64,000 nucleotides of DNA from Hippasteria phrygiana (Eukaryota > Echinodermata > Asteroidea > Valvatida > Goniasteridae), in assembly GCA_037893225.1 (NCBI GenBank), contig JAZGUH010000085.1, positions 1,054,001 through 1,118,000 of the forward strand. Direction: 5' to 3'. This document shows positions 56,201 through 59,200 of this stretch, one piece after another. A program made the position numbers and the translations under genes. Numbering within the stretch: the first letter of the stretch is position 1; each line of letters begins with the position of its first letter. A model generated the notes under the pieces. That model was not told the DNA's origin, did no database searches, and worked only from the letters and a program-made list of their open reading frames with translations.

Positions 56201-59200
56201 CACCAGCAATTGTAAATGATCTGGCATTCTATTTTACACGATTGGTACATTTGGATATGTATTTTATTTTTAAGAAAAATTTCAGTTCAGTACATTTCAG
56301 AACAATTAACCTTACTTGGCAACAAAAATAAAAGTCAACACGTCATAAGAACATAGATCACACAACAATCTCATGTTAGATTCTTAACAGGGGCAGGTGC
56401 ATTTTGCAAATTAAGACTATTCAAAGAAAAAGCATGTAACACACACTCACACAAGGTTTAGGTCAAAAATCCATGTGTCAATTATCTGCGCGTGCTGTGT
56501 GATGCGCCTACATAAAATTAAAGTGTTTAGGGTGAACCAAATATTGACAAGTGGGATTTGAACCCGTTACCTCCATATTATCACACTGGCCCTCCACTAA
56601 CTAAGCTATCTTGTCCTATGTTGGCGGTCTCCCAAATCTGTTCAGTAGGTGCTAGGGGTTACAATTTGGCAATGAAGTTTTTCAAGCCTTACCTCAAAGA
56701 TGTTTTCCCTAGAAACTTCTAATCTACAGTGGCCCGTCTGCGGCTGTAGCGAAGAGAGCTCTGCGTGTAGTACCTTCAGTTTCTGAACGACGTCCCGAGT
56801 GTACTTGGGTGCTTGAGTCATCTCTAGATTGCCATTATCACAGGGCCTGTGAAAAGATCAACAAAATTTACTGAATCATTTGGTCTGAATAGACGAGGAG
56901 ACCCAAAAGATCCTGGACTAATCTACTGAAAAAGTTTCAGGCAAGGAAAACATTTTCATAACACTTTCATATTGCATACAGCAAGCCAATACTTGTTTTA
57001 CACAGAGAACCCTTTCTTTTTCTGAATGGGACAGAAATGCAGATTGAGTTCAAAAAAAAAAAATATATATATATATATATCCAATGAAATTGGCATTTAT
57101 CACAATCCAAAGTGCTCGATACATCTCTGTAGAGCTATATATATGAAATAAATTCAGGATATGAGTTAAATCAACTTAGGCATATTTATTTCTGGACAGA
57201 CTGTTTCGTGCCGTGTGGCACTCATCAGCAGAATGACTTAGAATATCATGTAGCATTTTCGTACGTATCAAATTATGCGCGCGTTGCGCGTTTCACAGCG
57301 AACGAAGCGTGTCACTTGGTACGTCATTGCACTAAGTGCGCACGCTATGTCACTGAACTTAGTACGCACCTGTCCCGGTGTCTACACTTAGAGATGATTT
57401 CGCTTCTCTTATTTAGTGTACCTAGGTTAGGTTTGCATATATATATATAAAATTAACAAAATTTAAAATAACAATAACAAAAATCACATTTTTTGTACAA
57501 TTTTATTTAAATTGTAACTCGTAAATTGTAATTTGTTAAGTAGAAAAAAATCGCAAAAAAAGCGCATGATTTCTTAACTTGTTTTTAATCATTAGCATTC
57601 AATTACAAAATCGCACACAATGCAAACAAATTCTGTAAAAGAATTGTACTGTCTGTGCTCTCTATAAATTTTCACCCCCCAAAATTATTTAGGTTTTTCA
57701 AATTATTTGCAGCCAAATAATAATTTAGGTCCCTAACCGCTTATATTTTGGAAGTTTGGAGTGCAAAAGCAAACAAGAATAAAAGCAATTTTGTTTTGGA
57801 GGGTTTGCAGATGCCCAAAATAGGAAAAAGAGTTCTTTTTGTAAAAAAACAACATACAATTTGAAAAAGAGAAAAATCAAACTTGTTGAACATGGACAGC
57901 ATTTCTTTCAGTAGTGGAAAACGTTTTAGCTTTGAGAAACATGTTTCACAGCACCAATTTCTGGCAAAAAGCCAGGGGCCAATTTCACGGCGATGCTAAG
58001 CACACAAAATTTGCTTAGCATGAAAAATATTCCTCGGTAAATACAAGATTAACAAACATTTTGATGTGGAGTCTATCGCTTGTGGCCGGCATTGAGCTGT
58101 TGTTTGCTTAGCATAAAAATCCCATGGCCTTTTGGCTGGTAACCTGTTTTAACTAAGCAAGACTTTTTGGTGCTAAGCAAGACATTTTTTTGCTTAGCAG
58201 CTCCGAGAAATTGGCCCCAGGTGTACAAGTGTAGCGCTTTGGTATCAAAAGAGGGAGGTGAGTTGCTCTCACCAATGGTGGAAGTTACCTCATCTGGGTC
58301 GATAGGTCTGAAAATTGGGATAATTTCTCTGGAATCTGTTCAAGAATTATCCTCTATTTAGATCTGGACCCAGGAAAACCGTAAGGGTGGTAGGGTTGGA
58401 AATTCAAAATGTTGCCAACCCCACCACCTCTGATCGTAACCCTTTACCCAGAGTTGCTTTTGCCTTGTTTTGGGTGATTTCAGTAAAATAAAAAAATATT
58501 AAATGCGGATTATTAAGTAAACCTCGTTTTGTACCAAACCACAAAGTCGAGACTTTTAATGGGCTCTGCATTCAGAGGACTTTGTGCTTGATTCCAGAAA
58601 GGAAGCGTATGAATATCGAGGTAAAGTCTGGGTTCTGGCCAACCCCTTTATTAATAACCAATTTCCCCTTCCCTTACTAAAACCCTCCCCTAATCCAAAA
58701 TCCCAAGCAAAATCCCAACAATATTATAGTGTGACAGATATGACAGTAGGCTAGTCAAGCCGATACTCTGGAAGTGTATGTCCCAACAAACTTTTTGGGG
58801 GGTTCTAATACAACATGGTAAAATGTAGTTTTTCCTATTATTTTGTTTACAACATAAATGTTTCCTGTGTGCAGAAAAATGCAGGGGGGAGGGAACACAA
58901 AAAATAAATAAATAAATAAATAAATTAAAAAAACATAAAAAAAACAACAAAAAACAACAACAACAAACAAACAAAAATCAGCATAAACATTATCAGCATG
59001 CCCTAAAAGGGGGGGAAAACAAATGTATTGCCTATTCGTTCTAAAAATTACTACGGTTTAAAAAATCATTCAGAAGTAGAATAATGTACAGGACCTTGAA
59101 AATGCACCGTTTGTCTAAACAAAAAAATCATTGACGAAAATGATTTCAGGGACGCCAGAGGGTTCAAATTCGGACTGGTGCCCTATACACAACTTTGGTT

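Follow-up and report, generated by a model that had tools for sequence, protein, structure and literature searches.

A hammerhead ribozyme motif in a starfish SMURF intron very probably derives from a Penelope-like element

Hammerhead ribozymes have been described both in mobile elements and in introns of protein-coding genes. Penelope-like elements (PLEs) carry them in their pseudo-LTRs, usually without helix III or its variable nucleotides, according to the relevant passages of two reviews (PMC6155905, PMC7761336). The human RECK and C10orf118 hammerheads are stated, in a passage of PMC3088659, to cut in vitro. Passages of PMC10919898 describe the Cpeb3 ribozyme as an intronic ribozyme able to act on splicing or on mRNA level. 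Work quoted in the same paper indicates that fast intronic ribozymes reduce splicing and that slow ones do not.

A type I hammerhead motif is present in a SMURF intron of the starfish Hippasteria phrygiana, within the 64,000-nt stretch of DNA analyzed here (the window). It is very probably the hammerhead of a PLE 3' terminal repeat (pseudo-LTR), carried by a 5'-truncated, 378-bp sense copy that lies at an AT-rich spot of the intron. Among the open-licence papers listed for hammerhead ribozymes together with introns, echinoderms, sea urchin, starfish or Smurf1/Smurf2, none was seen to describe a hammerhead in SMURF. In passages of the two listed papers that combine hammerhead ribozyme with Smurf1 and Smurf2, the term occurred only inside a reference about E6AP.

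The motif and its intron

The motif is encoded on the minus strand at 57189-57234. The first-pass annotation had described an intact hammerhead with a full core, a 5-bp stem II and a 3-bp stem III, and had named a search with Rfam Hammerhead_1 (RF00163) as a check. Both the letters and the search agree with that description. The cmscan match (57234-57189, minus) scored 39.8 bits against a gathering cut-off of 34, with an E value of 1.4e-6 over the whole window. All of the core letters are present, and the three helices are arranged so that the structure is open at helix I. Stem I is UUCUG/CAGAA (5 bp). Stem II is GUGCC/GGCAC (5 bp) with the loop ACAC, and is accompanied by the core sequences CUGAUGA and GAA. 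Stem III is ACA/UGU (3 bp) with the loop GUC, and the A15.1-U16.1 pair is present. C17 is located at 57195, which places the predicted cut at 57195/57194 (minus), the same position that had been proposed earlier. A rule scan of the 64,000 nt found this single motif.

The region outside the core is less defined. The outer part of helix I is not unique, and in a check for contact between loop I and loop II the fold beyond the core varied with the length that was folded. Helix III is a 9-nt near-palindrome, so that two copies could pair with each other (duplex, -8.3 kcal/mol). Such pairing might help tandem copies to act as dimers, whereas the SMURF copy stands alone.

The intron extends from 60364 to 56847 on the minus strand. 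An open frame at 60364-60627 (minus) holds the upstream exon with two WW stretches and matches the WW domains of SMURF2 (E 1.8e-36). Another at 56645-56857 (minus) holds the downstream exon and matches the stretch of SMURF2 that precedes the HECT domain (E 1.3e-13). A further downstream exon matches the HECT domain itself. Since the frames on either side match SMURF2, and since the intron begins with GTAAGT at 60364 and ends with CACAG at 56847, it is real. These ends and frames also bear out the earlier placement of the hammerhead within this intron, in sense orientation to SMURF. The predicted cut leaves 348 nt of intron ahead of the 3' splice site. Cleavage of the SMURF pre-mRNA by the predicted ribozyme is possible. 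Slow intronic ribozymes are stated to spare splicing in the passages cited above (PMC10919898), so little effect would be expected of a slow ribozyme this near to the 3' splice site.

The motif lies in an insert that can be outlined by comparison with other copies. The insert is the 5'-truncated 3' end of a PLE, 378 bp in length, at 57063-57440 (minus). It retains the final 31 codons of the ORF and their stop (57348-57440, minus), the hammerhead-bearing 3' region, and an 18-nt (AT)n tail at 57063-57080 that forms its 3' end. In the family, 3' ends are also common at an inner TATATATA tract, which lies at 57136-57144 (minus) in the window copy. At the 5' junction there is a 13-nt (AT)n tract (57437-57449), in which ATAT is common to target and element. 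The 18-nt and 13-nt tracts are the longest of four perfect AT tracts of at least 10 nt in the window, and 356 bp lie between them. A check for a target site duplication found AT tracts flanking the insert on both sides, with the tail itself being AT. Most of the compared copies end with ..CCAATTTCATTGG(AT)n and then differ in their flanks. Upstream of 57440, 17 of the 21 other distinct copies continue with one common sequence. The window copy has TTTTATATATAT instead, and is considered 5'-truncated because the common sequence is absent there. No empty site or second allele was found in the assembly, where the flank of the insert occurs once. On the plus strand, an open frame of 105 codons (57133-57450) runs antisense across the insert; it was considered and has no Pfam match.

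Other features were seen in the same intron and elsewhere in the window. A MITE-like inverted repeat with GCTTAGCA motifs is present in the intron at 57972-58221; its 37-nt arms are 84% complementary. The intron stretch beside the insert, 57450-57960, shows a relationship to a dispersed repeat of its own, with at least 39 other genomic matches of 68-85% identity when 40 of the 197 candidates were scored. Four tRNA-Thr(GGT)-like genes were identified at 19875-19947, 19972-20044, 33559-33631 and 43515-43587, two of them back to back, along with a weaker tRNA match at 54417-54489. These scattered genes are possibly a tRNA-derived SINE. A tandem array at 49096-50205 consists of 12.5 copies of a 90-bp unit with 97% matches. 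An exon of a nucleotide-sugar transporter is present at 22705-23049 (PF04142, E 1.4e-20).

The parent element and its copies

The motif is one of many in this genome. A similarity search with 57340-57080 (261 nt) over 944 Mb in 1285 contigs found at least 43 places besides the window's own, with 94-99% identity. This count is a lower bound, because scoring covered 40 of the 133 first-look candidates. Of the 44 listed places, window included, 34 extend to query position 236 or beyond of the 261. At least 74 Hammerhead_1 matches are present genome-wide (74 of 126038 first-look candidates were scored), and all of those listed are above the cut-off. Hammerhead_1 had 0 matches in 14 control genomes, and a 26-base pattern had 0 matches in viral contigs. 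With free position 7 set aside, the motif is repeated letter for letter in 57 of 65 fragments that span it, a set that was partly gathered by the motif.

The ORF can be followed in longer copies. At locus L029, a 485-codon ORF piece ends in the same 31 residues as are encoded at 57440-57348 of the window. There were 4275 homologs of this ORF among 7995 scored. Their alignments contain the motif LYRDDGL and a cysteine-rich C-terminus. A GIY-YIG-like pattern, Y.A..YVG..FK.R..NH..TELSK, is conserved at the C-terminus. For a 699-aa homolog (P0003), a structure model was predicted from 45 sequences with a pLDDT of 90.8. Telomerase reverse transcriptases (RTs) fill 8 of the 10 best Foldseek rows for this model, the first being 3du5_A (E 3.8e-8); VIA-align Z does not distinguish telomerase RTs from those of DGRs and group II introns. 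Residues 579-670 of the model follow the order strand-strand-helix-helix-strand-helix. This order and the C-terminal pattern are what we take to resemble a GIY-YIG endonuclease. GIY-YIG folds were absent from the best 50 rows of Foldseek or VIA-align for the whole of P0003; the RT domain fills both. The ORF matched no Pfam or NCBIfam model, including no GIY-YIG profile, and no PDB sequence. The name PLE thus rests on fold, motifs and architecture. A reverse transcriptase is present in the parent element. The window also contains an RT fragment at 31702-32154, matched by Pfam RVT_1 with an E value of 4.6e-4, which falls short of the curated cut-off.

The architecture was explored at tandem loci. 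Two same-strand hammerheads were found at each of L063, L064, L065 and L066, separated by 2244, 2264, 2797 and 2384 nt, respectively. At L063, L064 and L065 an open frame of 591, 599 and 716 codons, respectively, begins 140 nt past the upstream C17. The frame is broken ahead of its C-terminal part at L063, L064 and L066. Judged by the arrangement of the loci, tandem hammerheads around coding sequence are a Penelope-like architecture, with a repeated terminal sequence (pLTR) that carries hammerheads. Downstream of the ORF at L065 (4476-4597), there is a long hairpin that is mir-77-like far below the gathering score and is probably an inserted inverted repeat.

Outside this genome, a search for relatives confirmed 0 loci in viral contigs and 2 in genome contigs (L083 and L084), with 47% and 49% identity in the best segment. 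These two probably represent host DNA included in records of symbionts or sponges. Neither of them, both being short records, contains a hammerhead by Rfam or by rule scan. Thus, either some members of this ORF family lack the hammerhead, or theirs is out of reach for these searches.

Of 77 copies or fragments, 42 reach the AT-tail zone, 28 have their 3' end at 57134-57148, and 7 elsewhere; at least 3 of the 42 are inner units that run on into the ORF. The AT tail and the inner tract are both downstream of the predicted cut. None of the 77 fragments ends within 10 nt of the cut, although the loci were partly gathered by the motif, which could hide such ends. The same was found among the 44 listed similarity places (0 ends within 10 nt). 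Since no fragments end at the cut and most end at the two TA tracts, hammerhead cleavage does not seem to have set the ends of the templates. Instead, RNA that was uncut or re-ligated would have been primed at TA tracts.

At the other end, 33 of the 77 fragments start inside the 378-nt query, some of these being pieces of one copy. Truncation at the 5' end is thus frequent in the family, as in the window copy, which starts at 57440. A cluster of 5' ends is located at the 5' edge of the hammerhead, 57229-57248, with 13 of the 33 (from contigs including C730, C796, C53, C56:125, C574, C433, C375, C313 and C126). It looks as if reverse transcription stops, or RNA starts, at this edge.

Thirty pairs of neighboring copies were found: 21 head-to-head, 7 same-strand and 2 tail-to-tail. 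The head-to-head inverted pairs are located at L003, L005, L009, L010, L011, L012, L014, L018, L072, L073 and others. In 18 of the 21, one arm extends to the AT tail and its partner stops at the inner TATATATA tract (57136 in the window). In one mixed head-to-head pair (C313), one arm is an inner unit. Under a tentative and rather doubtful explanation, the inserted end is not set by the cut. Element RNA, circularized by the ribozyme (or left uncut), could be reverse-transcribed from both (TA)n target strands, each priming on one of the two fixed TA tracts. If true, priming from both strands at two TA tracts would explain the tandem and the inverted PLE pLTRs in one step.

Alternative origins of the motif

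It is very improbable that the motif is a chance or decayed look-alike unable to cut. ViennaRNA does favor an alternative fold over the window hammerhead by about 5.5 kcal/mol, and the probability of stem I is 0.04-0.43 in growing transcripts. The alternative fold is not evidence against the motif, because the Rfam consensus hammerhead is equally penalized in the same kind of calculation (5.56 vs 5.51 kcal/mol for the window motif). The score above the Rfam cut-off and the dozens of near-identical copies also argue against a look-alike. A first-order Markov sequence of 150 Mb contained no motif with stems of at least 5/5/3 and a stem-loop III of at most 12 nt. A second-order Markov sequence of 1.9 Gb contained 3 motifs with such stems, or about 0.0002 per two-strand window. 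A chance origin of the window hammerhead is very unlikely, and slow cutting by it is possible. A functional motif could also be a domesticated intronic hammerhead, similar to those of RECK and C10orf118, kept because cuts in the SMURF intron serve to regulate splicing or the amount of mRNA. The motif is intact, in sense orientation and 348 nt ahead of the 3' splice site, and there is precedent in the cited passages on Cpeb3 (PMC10919898) and on RECK and C10orf118 (PMC3088659). However, the insert is young, which makes domestication very improbable. The nearest copies diverge by 1.1% from the one in the window, which departs from the majority letter at 4 of 351 sites, all outside the motif. Among 42 motif-spanning copies found by DNA similarity, window included, the motif is intact in 37, free position 7 aside (22 U, 15 C), and changed in 5; the query contained the motif, which may slightly favor intact copies. 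Youth by itself would thus predict an intact hammerhead at SMURF, with no need for selection. In the copies found by DNA similarity, the motif and its flanks have similar shares of variable sites (7/43 vs 59/302, p 0.68). Minor letters are fewer in the motif (8/1887, 0.42%) than outside it (118/11791, 1.0%; p 0.013), in a test that counts related copies as independent. In the 65-fragment set the motif looked more conserved; selection on that basis was dropped, as the set was partly gathered by the motif. Nothing was found that suggests selection for the motif at SMURF.

The least probable of the origins considered is insertion into the intron of a non-coding metazoan retrozyme, a unit of about 170-400 nt that carries a type I hammerhead. 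The insert is of a suitable size, has AT boundaries and has a helix III of canonical size; retrozymes as small as this are described in PMC7229834. Its AT-rich RNA folds better than shuffled sequences (z -2.8; circular fold, z -2.5), but z is only -1.1 after G+C correction against 70 other windows. The paired fraction is 0.63, compared with 0.59 in 70 control windows and with the value above 0.70 stated for retrozymes in a passage of PMC4918200. The tandem spacing is 2.2-2.8 kb rather than 0.2-0.4 kb. Other copies run upstream into the RT-coding ORF, the last codons of which are carried by the window copy. A retrozyme or SINE unit, suggested by the two AT tracts, the 356 bp and the fold z, was abandoned in view of the longer copies with the ORF.

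The origin from a PLE terminal repeat is preferred. In the parent element, the ribozymes would cut or circularise the element's own RNA. A 5'-truncated copy would have been inserted in sense orientation at the AT-rich spot of the SMURF intron. The SMURF copy would be a young passenger that may cut some pre-mRNA, with little or no effect on SMURF. Because a young PLE copy brought a motif found at dozens of other genomic places, the window hammerhead is most likely a passenger rather than a special SMURF switch. The intact type I hammerhead, its place and cut site, and the hint at PLEs in the first-pass annotation have held up. Its interpretation of the hammerhead as a SMURF feature has not, given the similar places and Hammerhead_1 matches genome-wide and a source in a 5'-truncated PLE copy that is about 1% from its closest relatives.

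Comparison with known systems

A striking single-gene claim becomes that of an ordinary transposon remnant. The family is a compact, young and multicopy group of hammerhead-bearing PLEs within one genome, and its junctions allow testing of how PLEs use ribozymes. Intronic copies are natural ribozyme insertions into host transcripts.

Like PLEs and Terminons, the element encodes an RT and has terminal repeats with a type I hammerhead placed in tandem on either side of the ORF, and its 5'-truncated copies are dispersed. Inverted partial copies are also described for Penelope of A. vaga, in passages of PMC3846280 that do not mention hammerheads. The starfish helix III, 3 bp with a 3-nt loop, is longer than is typical for PLE or minimal hammerheads in the reviewed passages (PMC6155905, PMC7761336). 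Metazoan non-LTR retrozymes share the canonical-size type I hammerhead and the small AT-rich insert. However, they have no coding capacity and form short tandem units, whereas the starfish element encodes an RT and its hammerheads are 2.2-2.8 kb apart. The amniote RECK and C10orf118/CTCL hammerheads are also in sense orientation in an intron of a protein-coding gene. These are conserved at one place across species, according to passages of PMC6155905 and PMC3088659, whereas the starfish hammerhead is of recent arrival and belongs to a family with many copies.
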